Positions 2,069 to 25,042 of a DNA stretch of 64,000 nucleotides are shown here, in pieces. How positions within the stretch are numbered: position 1 is the stretch's first letter; each line of letters starts with the position of its first letter. The position numbers were made by a program, and so were the translations under genes. Source of the DNA: Hellea sp. (GTDB lineage: Bacteria > Pseudomonadota > Alphaproteobacteria > Caulobacterales > Maricaulaceae). The stretch lies in assembly GCA_014238285.1 (NCBI GenBank), contig JABABK010000002.1, forward strand, positions 56,626 through 120,625. The letters run 5' to 3'. The notes beneath the pieces are model-generated. The model did not search any database, was not told the origin of the DNA, and saw only the letters and a list, made by a program, of their open reading frames with translations.

Positions 2069-2695
2069 TTAACCAGATACCCAAAGCGGATATTTTGTCA
2101 TAACAGTCTTAAACAAATCCGAATCTAGGTGTCGGGTCAGCCATTCCCTGACGGCTGGATAGGGCGCGCCGTTCCACCAATTTTTATCAGTATTGGCGAA
2201 TTGGCGTATGAAGGGAAATATAGCGATGTCAGCGATGGTTTGCTTTGCGCCCATCAAATAAGTCGTTGTGGATAGGGTGCGCTCATAGGTTTGGATGAAG
2301 CCTTCCGCCTTAGAGCGATGTGATAAATCCACGTCACCACGATTTGCTGTGTCGTCATAGCGGCTGGCATATTTATAGCGGTCCTGATGCTGTTTAAATG
2401 GTCCGTCATTATCGGCTATCAGCGCATTGGCGGCTTTAAGGTCACAATCAAGCCAGCCTTGAGGATCATTTTGGGAAAGCGCATAATTTAAAAGATCAAG
2501 ACTTTCGTCAATGATCTCGCCGTCACTTTTGATGAAAACCGGAACGGTTCCTTTGGGCGAAACCTCGAGCATATGCGCTGGTTTATCCCGCAGGATAATT
2601 TCTCTGTGTTCGTATTTAAGTCCACTGACCAAGAGCCCCATTCGTCCGCGCATAGCATAGGGGCAGCGCCGGAACGAATAGAGGATGGCTGTCAC
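2069..2695 (-). CDS. Glutathione S-transferase family protein
   Basis: This 208-residue protein has a thioredoxin-fold N-terminal domain with the motif CPYAMR at residues 11-16, the cis-Pro stretch KGTVPVF near 48-54 and the glutathione-contact ES pair shortly after. An all-helical C-terminal domain follows, with the conserved helix signature TIADIAIFPFIRQF. The Cys in the active motif suggests an omega/Grx2-like thiol transferase or dehydroascorbate reductase-type GST rather than a detoxifying Tyr/Ser GST. The start is a GTG that overlaps the TGA of the upstream gene (GTGA), so the two are translationally coupled. The physiological substrate is unknown. Confidence 0.85.
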   Translation of the reverse strand: MTAILYSFRRCPYAMRGRMGLLVSGLKYEHREIILRDKPAHMLEVSPKGTVPVFIKSDGEIIDESLDLLNYALSQNDPQGWLDCDLKAANALIADNDGPFKQHQDRYKYASRYDDTANRGDVDLSHRSKAEGFIQTYERTLSTTTYLMGAKQTIADIAIFPFIRQFANTDKNWWNGAPYPAVREWLTRHLDSDLFKTVMTKYPLWVSG

Positions 2696-3159
2696 TTATA
2701 AAGCCGTTTCAAGACGCGTTTATCAACGATGGTTTCTTCAAATTCTGTCCCGGCTAACATAGCTTGATATTCGCCGGGCTTGCGCTCTTCAAGTTTGATG
2801 TGGCGAGGGAAGGGGATGTCTTGACCCAGTAAAAGATTAGAGACCAAGAAATTTAAAATGGCGGCTTCATAACGCTTGTCTATGGTCATGACTTCTTTGG
2901 TGCAGCGCGCCCATTTGACCACGCCGGAGCGGTTTTTATTTGTCTTTATTCTAACACGGTAAACGCCTTGACCCGTCGCGCTACGATGGAAGCTAAGGAT
3001 ACCCTTCTCAAAATAAACGAACCATTTATCGGTGTCATTTTTCGGGACAAGACCTCGGCTCAGCGCGCGCATTTCATTGGGGCTGAATTCATCTGTATAA
3101 GGTATTTTGGCAAGCTTTCGGAATTTTTCCCTTGGGCCGTCATTGCGCTTGGCGTTCAT
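2692..3159 (-). CDS. Conserved hypothetical protein, 155 aa
   Basis: I do not recognise a named family. The protein is basic at the N-terminus, has no signal peptide or membrane segment, and has a central alternating stretch (KWFVYFEKGILSFHRS, then YRVRI) that reads like a small mixed alpha/beta fold. The C-terminal third is charged. It sits 39 nt downstream of trhO and its stop codon overlaps the start of the GST gene, so all three are probably one transcript. Composition is like its neighbours. Its reality as a gene rests on the tight coupling and on the complete absence of alternative ORFs on the strand. Confidence 0.65.
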   Translation of the reverse strand: MNAKRNDGPREKFRKLAKIPYTDEFSPNEMRALSRGLVPKNDTDKWFVYFEKGILSFHRSATGQGVYRVRIKTNKNRSGVVKWARCTKEVMTIDKRYEAAILNFLVSNLLLGQDIPFPRHIKLEERKPGEYQAMLAGTEFEETIVDKRVLKRLYK

Positions 3160-3198
3160 AGCACTCTCTTAGTCGTTTGGCTCTTAGTCGGTTGGATA

Positions 3199-4116
3199 CT
3201 AATCGGTTTGGCGTCCAATGTGAGGCTCGCCGCGTTTTTTCGCAAGGTCTATTTGTTTTTGGCGCTCGGCAAAGCGTATTTTTTGCTCATCGCTCATCTT
3301 GTTGTGGCAACGGTGGCAGGATACGCCTTTGATATAGTGGGCATGGTTTTTGTCATCTTCGGTAATTGGGTAACGGCAGGCATAGCATTGGTCATAATCA
3401 GACTCGGCTAAGCCGTGACCAACGGCAACGCGCTGATCAAAGACGAAACAATCACCATTCCAAAGACTGCTGTCTTCTTTGACTGTCTCAAGGTATTTTA
3501 AGATACCACCCTTGAGGTGATAAACCTCGTCATAGCCTTGCTTCTTCATATAGGAACTGGCCTTTTCGCAGCGAATACCGCCCGTGCAAAACATGGCGAC
3601 TTTCTTTTTGGCCCGTAGTTCGTCTTCATGGTCTTCAACCCATTTTGGAAACTCCCGAAAAGTTTCAGTGTCTGGGTTTATGGCACCCTCAAACGTGCCG
3701 ATCTCAACTTCGTAATCATTGCGAGTGTCCACGAGGATCACATCTGGGTCGGAAATCAAATTATTCCAGTCCTTTGGATCGACATAAGTCCCGACAATGT
3801 CATTGGGGTCTACCCCGTCAACGCCCATGGTGACGATCTCTTTTTTAAGGCGCACTTTCATGCGGTAAAACGGCATGGTTTCGGCGCGGCTTTCTTTATG
3901 CTCTAGCCCGACAAGGCGGGGGTCAGCCCGAAGGAAGGCTAGCATTTTAGCAATGGCGCTATCCGTGCCAGCCACCGTCCCATTTATACCTTCACGGGCT
4001 AGTAGGACTGTGCCTTTAATATCATATAGATTGCATAGGTTTTGTAGCGGCTCTTTGAGCTGCTCATAGTCCGTCAGGCGGGTGAAGTTATAAAGGGCGG
4101 CCACGCAGTAAGTCAT
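3199..4116 (-). CDS. trhO: tRNA uridine(34) hydroxylase TrhO (rhodanese family)
   Basis: TrhO (formerly YceA) uses oxygen to convert uridine 34 of certain tRNAs to 5-hydroxyuridine, the first step of cmo5U/mcmo5U wobble modification. The 305-residue protein has the UPF0176 N-terminal domain (to about 95), a rhodanese domain with the active loop [10 protein letters not shown] (Cys177 as catalytic Cys, Cys183 next to it), and a C-terminal zinc-ribbon-like part with CYAC and CHRC pairs. E. coli TrhO is longer at the C-terminus; the shorter form is common in alphaproteobacteria. It is first in a probable operon with the 155-aa protein and the GST. Confidence 0.93.
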
Positions 4117-6123: not shown

Positions 6124-6146
6124 CTTCAATCTCCTTGAAGGTTATT

Positions 6147-6167
6147 GCCAGCGGACTCCCCGCCAGC
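6147..6167 (-). promoter_or_regulatory. GGAGU-loop hairpin in the nadM-nadV intergenic region
   Basis: In the transcript the arms GCUGGCGG and CCGCUGGC form an 8-bp stem (two G-U pairs) around the 5-nt loop GGAGU, about 24 nt before the nadV ATG. The loop and the closing CGG/CCG are identical to those of a second hairpin upstream of nadM, while the outer stems differ, so structure rather than sequence seems to be kept. Confidence 0.55.
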
Positions 6168-6173
6168 GGTTAG

Positions 6174-7229
6174 TTATTTAACGCCGTCCAGCATTTTATT
6201 GATGATAAAATAGTGGTCTTCGAAGCAATCGCGTGAATCAAGACTGCCAATGGGTACCCATAGGGCATCTACGGCATCATCATCTGCCATGACTTTCATC
6301 AGTTTTTTCGCAGGTGGTAGGCGGAACAAAAAGGCGTGTGTTAACGTGTATCCGCGCACGCTGCGCTTGGGATCATCAAAAACGCCGTGGCCTGCCAGAA
6401 AACCTTTGAGCTTGCCCATAGGGTACGGACCATGGCTATCGGCGAGGCGGGTTTCTTCACGCAGTTCACGGATAGCAGAATTGAGCAAAGTTTCGTTATG
6501 ATCCACAAATCCGCCGGGCAGGGCCAAGAGCCCTTTGCCGGGATGGCCGCCGCGCCGGATCATCAAAACATGACCTGATTGCACGACCACGCTATCGACA
6601 GTGACAAAACTTGGCGGGAAGGGCGCGTTGATCCAGGCCGCTTTATAGTTACGGACATAACTGCATTCCGCAAAAATTCGCTTAAAGCCTTCACTCGTCA
6701 TATAGTCTTTAAGGTATGTGCTGATAGGCTCTGGTAGAATATCATGGGTAATAACCGGCGCGCCTTTGAAATAAGCGTCCCGAATATCAGTGGCATTAAA
6801 CACCCCAAATTCATTGGGTACGTTGACGCTGCCCCATTGCGGGAACATTTTCAAATAATAAGACGTGTTGTCTTTATTGTGCCCGATTAAAGATATTTTG
6901 GCAGGCTCGTTCTGGCTAAACCCAAGCGCTTCTGCCTCACTGTCTACGCCGCGCTGGACGTTAGAGGTCCAAGCTTCGTCATTATAAAGCGTATCATCAA
7001 GGGGCCTGATAATAAGCTTCTTAGTGTTGACCTGATAAGGGTAACACGCTTTGATCATGTCTTTGCGCTGCTCGAAGCTCCACGGGTCACGCATAGACGG
7101 CGCGCGATTACCGCTGCCAACTAAAATGACCACATGATCGGCCTGCGCCAAAGCATGATCAACGACTGATTTATGTCCAATGTGAAAAGGCTGGAATCGC
7201 CCAATAAATACAAGAATGTCTTGCCGCAT
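6174..7229 (-). CDS. nadM: Bifunctional NMN adenylyltransferase / Nudix hydrolase
   Basis: The N-terminal domain (about 1-185) is a nucleotidyltransferase with GRFQPFHIGH (HxGH at 16-19) and the FNATDIR form of the second nucleotide-binding motif. It converts NMN and ATP to NAD. The C-terminal domain (about 205-350) is a Nudix hydrolase with a complete Nudix box from GGFVDHNET to RELREET, known in homologues (Synechocystis slr0787, Francisella) to cleave ADP-ribose. The 351-residue length fits the fusion family. The ATG is supported by GGAGG five nt upstream. Together with nadV downstream it makes a two-gene nicotinamide-to-NAD salvage operon. The 5' UTR carries a hairpin described separately. 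Confidence 0.93.
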   Translation of the reverse strand: MRQDILVFIGRFQPFHIGHKSVVDHALAQADHVVILVGSGNRAPSMRDPWSFEQRKDMIKACYPYQVNTKKLIIRPLDDTLYNDEAWTSNVQRGVDSEAEALGFSQNEPAKISLIGHNKDNTSYYLKMFPQWGSVNVPNEFGVFNATDIRDAYFKGAPVITHDILPEPISTYLKDYMTSEGFKRIFAECSYVRNYKAAWINAPFPPSFVTVDSVVVQSGHVLMIRRGGHPGKGLLALPGGFVDHNETLLNSAIRELREETRLADSHGPYPMGKLKGFLAGHGVFDDPKRSVRGYTLTHAFLFRLPPAKKLMKVMADDDAVDALWVPIGSLDSRDCFEDHYFIINKMLDGVK

Positions 7230-7260
7230 ATTTTCCTCCGTCTCCCGGATATGTAAAGCA

Positions 7261-7277
7261 ACACGGACTCCCCGTGT
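7261..7277 (-). promoter_or_regulatory. GGAGU-loop hairpin in the nadM 5' region
   Basis: In the transcript, ACACGG and CCGUGU form a perfect 6-bp stem around the loop GGAGU, about 32 nt before the nadM ATG. It shares the loop and the CGG/CCG closing pairs with the hairpin upstream of nadV, while the outer pairs differ in a compensated way. It is a candidate cis-regulatory RNA (for example a protein-bound GGA loop or part of a ligand sensor). Confidence 0.55.
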
Positions 7278-7352
7278 GCAGGGTATATATGGGTGTGAGA
7301 GTGACGGGAGTCAAGGATTTGGCTAGACTAACATGTAGCCTATTAGTATAAA

Positions 7353-8984
7353 GTGTTTGGGCATGGGTGGTTAAAGTTGAATTTTATAAATGAAATAGAC
7401 ATTGACGACATTTATAATGATGTAATCAAATCGGACGTTTTGGGAAAATCTACGCGACGTAAGAAGTTCTTTTATTACTTGCTTGAAAAAAATGCAGTGG
7501 ATGAGACAACCACCATTTCAGCATACGGAATCGCTCTTGATGTTTTTGATCGTTCTGAGGATTTTGACGCGTCTACAGATAGCATTGTACGCGCGGAGAC
7601 CCATCGCCTCCGCAATCGTTTGGAGCTTTATAATGGTAAGGCTTACAAGTATGAAATTTCTTTACCGAAAGGCGGGTTCGGAATTTCAGTAAGAGACGCG
7701 CCTGAAATCGGTGATCGCAAATCGGTAGGCGTAAAAAATTGGAAATTATTTCCATTTGGTATTGCTGCCATTGTTTTGATCTTGGTTTTAGCCGATGGAA
7801 TTTTATTCGGACGGTCTTCACAGCAGGCCTGCGCCGCTGAACGACCTAATATCTTTGTTTCGATAGAGGGTACTACCAATACTATCGAGACGGCAGAGCT
7901 TGCAAAATTTGTATTGGAGACTTCTCAGGCTGTCATTCAGCAACAACAAACATTTCATTTGCTCGAGGCTAAAGAAGATTGCCCGAATAGTCCGACCTAT
8001 GGCTTGAAGATTAATATATTTCCGCGAGGGAAAGAAGTTTATCTGTCGGTGACGGGAGAGCGAAATTCTGATAATAAAAAACTATTTAATTCAATCCACC
8101 GAGTTCAGGAAGTTTCCAATAATGGCAATGACGTTTTTGGATATATTGTGAGTACTATTGGGACTCTTGTAAAACCTGATGGATTGCTGTCAATTGACAC
8201 GCTGGATGGCGAATGGATGAACGAATTGGCAAAAACCAATATGACCTGTTGGGTAGGGACATATACTGCTGGGATTTTGGATAAAAATGAAGACTTCGAC
8301 TCCGCTACACAGTGTTTGGAATATGTTTCCCAAAAAGAACAGGCTTACCCCGAAAACTTGGCTTTATTGGCTTATATGTATGTTCTGCAAGATATTGGGG
8401 CTTTCCCGAATTCAATGTCTCGTGTGGATACGATCGACAACCTGATCGAACGTGGAAAAAAAATCGATTCAATCCGTCATGAATTATTGGGGGCTGAATT
8501 ATTTGCTGAAACTAAAAAATCTGACCGCAGCAATCAAAAAATTAGAGATTTATCTATGCGTATTGGCTCCGAGTTTCCATTGGTTCAAGCTGCCCAATTA
8601 CAACGTTTGCTGACTATGAGCTATACTCTTGGCGAATGGAAGGAGGGTGTGCCTCTTTATGGCTATATGAATACCATTTCCAATCAAAGGGATAATAGTA
8701 TGCTCTTGTTTAAAGTCGGGTACGATTTGCTTTATGAATCACCTGAAACTGCACTGAAGACAGCTATAAAACAATACTCCGTAAACAATATTCACTCAAA
8801 TTTAAATCTGTTGGCCAGTGCAAATTTTGTACAAAACAAGAAACATACTGATAAAGCGCGTGAGGCATTGGCGAGGCTAGGCCTCAATAGTATAGGTGAT
8901 TATATAAAACACATAGAGTCTCGCAGGTTTGAGCCAAAAATTACGGCAAAACTCATCGCGGGCGTGTCCATTGAGGCTCAATGA
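7353..8984 (+). CDS. Single-span membrane protein with N-terminal regulator-like domain
   Basis: The 543-residue protein has a cytoplasmic N-terminal domain of about 125 residues with KKFFYYLLEK, then a SIVRAETHRLRNRLELYN signature. This is the form seen at the N-terminus of many alphaproteobacterial proteins annotated as adenylate cyclase-like or CadC-like regulators with periplasmic or TPR sensor parts. One transmembrane helix follows (about 132-153), then roughly 390 residues with two or three Cys and a helical C-terminal half that could hold degenerate TPR-like repeats. No cyclase domain is present. The start is uncertain: GTG at 7353 or TTG at 7377, which is preceded by a weak GGTGG. It is divergent from nadM. 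A membrane signal sensor is likely; the target is unknown. Confidence 0.6.
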   Translation: MFGHGWLKLNFINEIDIDDIYNDVIKSDVLGKSTRRKKFFYYLLEKNAVDETTTISAYGIALDVFDRSEDFDASTDSIVRAETHRLRNRLELYNGKAYKYEISLPKGGFGISVRDAPEIGDRKSVGVKNWKLFPFGIAAIVLILVLADGILFGRSSQQACAAERPNIFVSIEGTTNTIETAELAKFVLETSQAVIQQQQTFHLLEAKEDCPNSPTYGLKINIFPRGKEVYLSVTGERNSDNKKLFNSIHRVQEVSNNGNDVFGYIVSTIGTLVKPDGLLSIDTLDGEWMNELAKTNMTCWVGTYTAGILDKNEDFDSATQCLEYVSQKEQAYPENLALLAYMYVLQDIGAFPNSMSRVDTIDNLIERGKKIDSIRHELLGAELFAETKKSDRSNQKIRDLSMRIGSEFPLVQAAQLQRLLTMSYTLGEWKEGVPLYGYMNTISNQRDNSMLLFKVGYDLLYESPETALKTAIKQYSVNNIHSNLNLLASANFVQNKKHTDKAREALARLGLNSIGDYIKHIESRRFEPKITAKLIAGVSIEAQ

Positions 8985-24629: not shown

Positions 24630-24980
24630 AAGAAAAGTGGAGGTTTCTGTTGCCAGCTACCTCCGAAGCCCGCCTTATCCAGCTAAAGGGATAAGGAGTT
24701 AAGAGCGAGTTGATCGCACTGCTTACGCAGCGAGAGCAAACTCATTAGCAGAATTGTCATTTGCAATTACTGTTATTAGGCATTTAACGATACCCATCCG
24801 AACGAAAGCTAACATTTTTAGACGTCTGTCGATCCTATTTCGGCCCCAGCAAAAACAGATTCGTAAAAAATCTGCTTATGGTGGAGCCGCCGGGTACCGC
24901 CCCCGGGTCCAGTCCGCTTATTATATGCGCGTTTATCGTCATATCTGGCAAGCCAGCTCCATCTATATAGGCGCAAACGA
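24630..24980 (-). ncRNA. ssrA: Circularly permuted two-piece tmRNA
   Basis: tmRNA rescues stalled ribosomes and tags the nascent chain for proteolysis. On the minus strand the acceptor piece comes first and ends CGGCUCCACCA at 24879. A short hairpin spacer (CAGATT...AATCTG) follows, then the coding piece begins GGGGCCG at 24847. GGGGCCG pairs with CGGCUCC to rebuild a 7-bp acceptor stem with ACCA end. The coding piece contains a resume codon GCA and a tag ORF ending GCTGCG-TAA, then hairpins (CCTTATCC/GGATAAGG and GGAGGT/ACCTCC). This acceptor-first order is the known alphaproteobacterial form (as in Caulobacter), in which the spacer is cut out. Outer ends are approximate. Confidence 0.92.
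24723..24764 (-). other. tmRNA tag reading frame ANDNSANEFALAA
   Basis: Starting at the GCA resume codon (24764-24762) the frame reads ANDNSANEFALAA and stops with TAA (24725-24723). ANDN at the start is shared with other alphaproteobacterial tags and the end LAA is the ClpXP/ClpAP degron. The frame has no start codon, as expected because translation resumes from tmRNA-Ala. Confidence 0.93.
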
Positions 24981-25042
24981 TTAAAAATTAAAGACCTTTG
25001 ATCATTTCTAGTTTAATGAATTTTCGGAATCACGGAGAGGTC

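Follow-up and report, generated by a model that had tools for sequence, protein, structure and literature searches.

Tandem hairpins with small conserved loops precede NAD salvage genes of Proteobacteria and phages: an apparently undescribed cis-regulatory RNA element

The 64,000-nucleotide stretch of DNA analyzed here (the window) comes from Hellea sp., an alphaproteobacterium of the family Maricaulaceae (assembly GCA_014238285.1, contig JABABK010000002.1, positions 56,626 to 120,625). It contains an operon of two NAD salvage genes, nadM and nadV, on the reverse strand (Table 1). An earlier note on this DNA had described two hairpins with identical GGAGU loops, one before each gene and both 20–35 nt from a start codon. 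We could confirm these hairpins at 7277–7261 and 6167–6147, with 31 nt to the ATG of nadM (7229) and 23 nt to the ATG of nadV (6123). The 3.74-Mb genome contains exactly two copies of the 11-mer that they share, CGGGGAGTCCG, namely those at these hairpins, and the probability of finding two random copies this close together is about 6e-4. A covariance-model search of the window up to E = 1 returned no third copy, and the note had noticed none either. What the note had missed is a second hairpin, with a GGAGA loop, in each leader. The full feature is a tandem of hairpin A followed by hairpin B that is present twice, which makes four hairpins, two per gene.

Table 1. Features of the nadM–nadV operon and its two leaders (positions in the window)
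Feature	Position	Strand	Basis or remark
Putative promoter of the nadM–nadV operon: TTGACT, 17 nt, CATATA	7286..7314	(-)	read from sequence
Hairpin A of nadM: ACACGG-GGAGU-CCGUGU	7261..7277	(-)	sequence; kept in 3 congeners
Hairpin B of nadM: UCCG-GGAGA-CGGA	7237..7249	(-)	position and loop unchanged in relatives
nadM: NMN adenylyltransferase–Nudix fusion, 351 aa	6174..7229	(-)	Pfam PF01467 and PF00293; NF003786 above cut-off
Hairpin A of nadV: GCUGGCGG-GGAGU-CCGCUGGC	6147..6167	(-)	nadM–nadV intergenic region
Hairpin B of nadV: CUUCAA-GGAGA-UUGAAG	6124..6140	(-)	identical across four congeners
nadV: nicotinamide phosphoribosyltransferase, 476 aa	4693..6123	(-)	PF18127 and PF04095; NF006629

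Hairpin B coincides with the ribosome-binding site of both genes. Its 3' arm overlaps the Shine–Dalgarno sequence GGAGG (7239–7235) of nadM, and in the nadV leader the Shine–Dalgarno sequence GGAG lies inside the loop, with the ATG immediately downstream. Measured from loop to loop, A and B are separated by about 26–29 nt in each copy. Our covariance model R1 matches the nadM leader, which is itself a seed of R1, at 7235–7279 (35.3 bits, E 8e-7), and the nadV leader, a non-seed sequence, at 6124–6167 (25.8 bits, E 4e-4). The promoter in Table 1 is putative, because a consensus promoter scan did not recover it; three congeners have a TTGAC box and, at comparable spacing, a CATAT-like box. With the predicted transcription start near 7279, hairpin A would form the 5' end of the nadM mRNA, and in folding calculations this leader adopts A and B only if the transcript starts near 7279. 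The folding energies of single leaders (z about −0.2 to −1.3) are weak evidence for a structure, whereas the comparative evidence is strong. The window also contains a divergent 543-aa open reading frame that adjoins nadM (7353–8984, +) and has no Pfam or NCBIfam match, and a permuted (two-piece) alphaproteobacterial tmRNA gene (24636–24996, −; Rfam RF01849 and RF04321), which is ordinary for the class.

The same operon is found in three congeners, with NadM proteins that are 74–81% identical. Hairpin A before nadM is almost invariant among them. In hairpin A before nadV the loop stays GGAGU and the stem letters change with compensation, giving the stems GCUGGCGG/CCGCUGGC, GCUGGCGG/CCGCCGGC, CCGGACAG/CUGUCCGG and CGA/UCG (outer pairs beyond one mismatch). 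Within the genus, nadM-Nudix occurs together with nadV in only four of ten genomes (G000–G009), some of the negative genomes being incomplete. This sporadic distribution looks as if the operon had been gained by horizontal transfer, perhaps from a phage.

Beyond this genus, alpha- and gammaproteobacteria as well as many phages have the tandem pair in front of nadM-Nudix and nadV genes; now and then it also precedes nadE or pnuC. The same layout was found in nadM-Nudix leaders of Kordiimonas, Methylococcales, other bacteria and IMG/VR phage contigs, and the named isolated phages RcXuper, DSS3_MAL1 and LucasX carry the element before nadM as well as nadV. Conservation sits in the loops, while the stems vary freely yet remain paired. 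Hairpin-A loops follow ANNGA or GGNGU, with AUAGA as the commonest form besides AGAGA, AAAGA, ACAGA and AGUGA; hairpin-B loops are of the GGAG/GGAU type (GGAGU, GGAGA, GGAUU, GGAGC). Mesorhizobium phage Cp1R7A-A1 has GGUGU in both. The loop-to-loop distance is mostly 24–31 nt (156 of 178 leaders) despite varying stem lengths, and the linkers are A-rich, G-poor and mostly 4–15 nt long. With the sequence of the A loop left unrestricted (178 leaders, stem of at least five pairs), the fourth loop base is G in 165 leaders and the loop ends are coupled: A..A in 133, G..U in 28 and crossed in only 4. This coupling suggests an end pair that closes a three-base tip, most often N-A-G. Many phage nadV leaders (for example L082, L101, L112, L127 and L134) have a hairpin A with an A-rich internal loop and an outer GCC/GGC stem. 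In Rhizobium rosettiformans (L035, 5578–6505) the nadM–nadV pair adjoins seven tRNA genes in a prophage-like setting, and the nadM leader of an IMG/VR contig (L066) matches that of this bacterium.

Several comparisons show that this arrangement is not a product of chance. A strict tandem definition holds for 92 of 183 non-redundant nadM/nadV leaders, as opposed to one of 18,300 first-order Markov shuffles. Leaders of other open reading frames in the same loci conform in 10 of 820 cases, several of which are NAD genes or mis-called nadM/nadV starts. If leaders are selected by the loop only (AUAGA 18–38 nt upstream of the Shine–Dalgarno sequence, n = 80), the inner pairs of hairpin A form in 75, 77 and 73 of the 80 sequences (0.26–0.49 in slid controls), and the first four pairs of hairpin B form in 79, 80, 80 and 79. 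All 12 pairs covary in a gapless alignment of the seeds, in the sense that both sides change somewhere, with a score of 1.10 versus 0.25 for shuffled sequences; this score is inflated because the sequences were chosen for paired stems. We therefore place weight on the strict-definition counts, the loop-only selection, the unrestricted A loop and a scan of viral contigs (see below) rather than on the seed alignment. Whole-genome covariance-model searches gave only weak new matches and lost true copies, such as the nadM copy of this genome, because only part of the candidates was scored. The element is a conserved, structured cis-regulatory RNA with helices that covary in diverse sequences. Covariation in related leaders, which the earlier note had named as a check on its reading, is present both in the seed alignment and in the loop-only selection.

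The viral-contig scan used the loop-only pattern and was run without reference to genes. It yielded 61 matches, 51 of which form both hairpins and 50 of these have a readable downstream open reading frame. These 50 comprise 29 nadM and 19 nadV genes (48/50), one unknown gene similar to the phage family phrog_1843 and one unrelated gene. With a second loop pattern, the viral contigs gave at least seven nadM, at least one nadV, at least one pnuC-like and at least two phrog_1843 genes. Further targets are pnuC (L136 and L104, Pfam-confirmed) and the NAD synthase gene nadE, which follows a tandem pentaloop element in one bacterial genome (L060, open reading frame 2619–4022, Pfam-confirmed). The element is consistently tied to one pathway, and its targets form an NAD regulon. 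The conserved loops, the covarying stems and the almost exclusive link to NAD genes, which extends over bacterial classes and phages, strongly support the earlier idea that the hairpins are a cis-regulatory RNA for NAD salvage. Copies of the element also lie before phrog_1843 genes (L098 1771–1817, L106 1724–1767, L252, L265 and L184), which suggests an NAD-related role for this family, and before small LuxR-type helix-turn-helix genes in two genome loci that bear nadM (L061 2529–2577 and L062 2551–2596).

No family in Rfam matches the element. The window leaders have no match in Rfam up to E = 10, and none of the leaders in 16 related loci matched at the gathering score in release 15, which we take to include a nadA family. 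A sub-threshold match to GOLLD in a phage contig is unrelated to the element. The NAD+-I riboswitch (nadA motif) consists of two tandem stem-loop domains before NAD genes, with the ribosome-binding site in the second (PMC7297122). The present element shares with it the paired similar stem-loops and the ribosome-binding site in the second one, but the NAD+-I domains contain a conserved ACANCCCC bulge, whereas the element has a far shorter core of 45 nt with conservation in the pentaloops. The ACANCCCC bulge occurs in none of 183 related leaders and in neither of the window leaders. In the NAD+-II riboswitch (pnuC motif), an internal bulge contains conserved nucleotides and a pseudoknot may form with the ribosome-binding site; the class is hardly found outside Streptococcus (PMC8632094, PMC7749635). 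It resembles the element in that some copies of the element precede pnuC and the ribosome-binding site is involved, but the element is made of two simple hairpins and occurs in Proteobacteria and phages; this class was compared through Rfam alone, where no match was found at the gathering score. The earlier statement that the hairpins fit no known NAD riboswitch held as far as it was tested. In open-licence papers we found no description of a nadV or nadM leader or riboswitch, and two large ncRNA surveys mention neither gene. We conclude that a widespread cis-regulatory RNA element for NAD salvage is real and apparently undescribed.

Judging from sequence and position, we believe that this element controls the translation of NAD salvage genes, with a probability of about 0.8 that leaves the identity of the effector aside. 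Translational rather than transcriptional control is indicated because hairpin B holds the Shine–Dalgarno sequence and because nadV has its copy within the operon. In the mechanism we propose, hairpin B would place the Shine–Dalgarno sequence in or beside its pentaloop just before the start codon, and hairpin A would display a pentaloop with coupled end bases (A with A, G with U) and a three-base tip ending in G. A factor acting in trans would recognize both tips, bridge the hairpins, lock B and mask the Shine–Dalgarno sequence, such that abundant NAD or precursor would keep ribosomes from loading. Upon a fall in NAD the factor would be released, and NadM and NadV would be made. The direction of this switch (OFF when NAD-replete) is read from the logic of the pathway, by which the element probably turns NAD salvage genes down when NAD is plentiful.

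As effector we favor a protein over a bare metabolite, because only small loops and their spacing are conserved, while the stems are free and the linkers variable. NadM-Nudix is our first candidate, since none of the sampled whole genomes without this protein was found to have a nadV element. We tentatively suggest that NadM-Nudix doubles as an RNA-binding repressor: a dimer could read the two pseudo-triloop hairpins over the Shine–Dalgarno sequences of nadM, nadV, pnuC and nadE, and let go when the levels of NAD or ADP-ribose change. Among the sampled nadV-bearing bacterial genomes, the nadV element is present in 8 of 12 with NadM-Nudix and in none of 8 without (Fisher p 0.005), although these genomes are not independent and we scored the presence of the element partly by eye. 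On three large phage contigs, nadV carries the element but has no nadM in its vicinity, and NadM-Nudix is encoded at another place on each contig. The co-occurrence of NadM-Nudix and the nadV element could also arise if they are inherited together as a module. Of 200 NadM-Nudix proteins, 68 (about a third) have genes that fail the tandem definition, some of them with near-miss variants. Comparison of the proteins with and without the element revealed no clean separating residue and no clear basic patch, and the missing separating residue means that this comparison lends no support to NadM as the binder. Homologues of the fusion protein have been solved (2QJO, 2QJT and 2R5W).

It is quite possible, if short of probable, that the element is instead a metabolite riboswitch, a third NAD-related class in which NAD+, NMN, nicotinamide or ADP-ribose would be enclosed by a joint fold of the two loops and the A-rich linker, and the Shine–Dalgarno sequence would be hidden without a protein. 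The target genes are those expected of an NAD riboswitch, the tandem design with the Shine–Dalgarno sequence in the second domain is like that of NAD+-I, the linker is A-rich and G-poor, and the element has spread over hosts with very different proteins. What speaks against such a fold is that each element has only about ten conserved bases, all of which lie in the two small loops or the Shine–Dalgarno sequence. We noticed no conserved junction, bulge or pseudoknot, the linker varies in length, and nadV copies are absent from the sampled genomes without NadM-Nudix. We find it unlikely that the loops are bound by a host factor with no relation to NAD enzymes, either a conserved protein or a small RNA and possibly one common to alpha- and gammaproteobacteria. 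Small conserved loops on variable stems are typical of protein sites and phages of diverse hosts carry the element, but no candidate was found, and a general host factor would need unusual specificity because the targets are almost only NAD genes. That the hairpins are passive, tuning ribosome access or mRNA stability and sensing nothing, is even less probable: the loop of hairpin A is conserved, this hairpin lies upstream and keeps an almost constant distance to B, and the tandem pair is nearly confined to NAD genes, even though B alone could tune translation and B-only leaders exist, for example in Vibrio phage 2.275.

The earlier note had also suggested a CsrA-like binder. In the classic layout CsrA (RsmA) represses translation by binding GGA in hairpin loops, one of which is the Shine–Dalgarno sequence, and the element resembles such sites in its GGA loops, in one of these being the Shine–Dalgarno sequence and in the close spacing of the two. 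GGA is indeed present in each loop in the window (GGAGU and GGAGA), but not across the family, where most A loops, including the commonest one, AUAGA, are without it. In addition, the csrA gene is absent in this lineage. None of 41 genomes (this one and 40 relatives) encodes CsrA, and the controls E. coli, B. subtilis and T. maritima were positive. We consider this binder highly improbable. The same holds for a DNA operator, in which the palindrome would bind a transcription factor (NrtR or NadQ, for example). NrtR is a Nudix-related protein that senses ADP-ribose, binds DNA and represses NAD genes; its targets overlap with those of the element, and the motif is an inverted repeat close to a promoter. 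However, the copy before nadV is internal to the operon, right at the Shine–Dalgarno sequence, and only the loop is conserved between freely varying arms, which is the reverse of an operator. By its position, the element would act at the level of RNA, unlike NrtR, which binds DNA.

If NadM-Nudix were the repressor, the logic of the mechanism would resemble that of the iron-responsive element and its enzyme partner IRP1. The iron-responsive element is a eukaryotic leader hairpin with a free stem and a conserved pseudo-triloop that is read by a metabolic enzyme. The present element differs in having two hairpins and a different loop, in its occurrence in bacteria and phages, and in that its reading enzyme is hypothetical.

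Phages carry NAD salvage genes to rebuild the NAD that is destroyed by host defense systems. We found no published description of how these phage genes are regulated (open-licence papers); a compact, portable RNA element that is common to bacteria and phages would explain their control. It also marks further genes, such as those of phage family phrog_1843, as probably NAD-related. Such an element would represent a new class of NAD-related riboswitch or, alternatively, a new feedback loop between an enzyme and RNA. If the reading with NadM-Nudix as the repressor is true, the element would be part of an RNA-level NAD sensor for bacteria and phages, including the phages that rebuild NAD during host defense.
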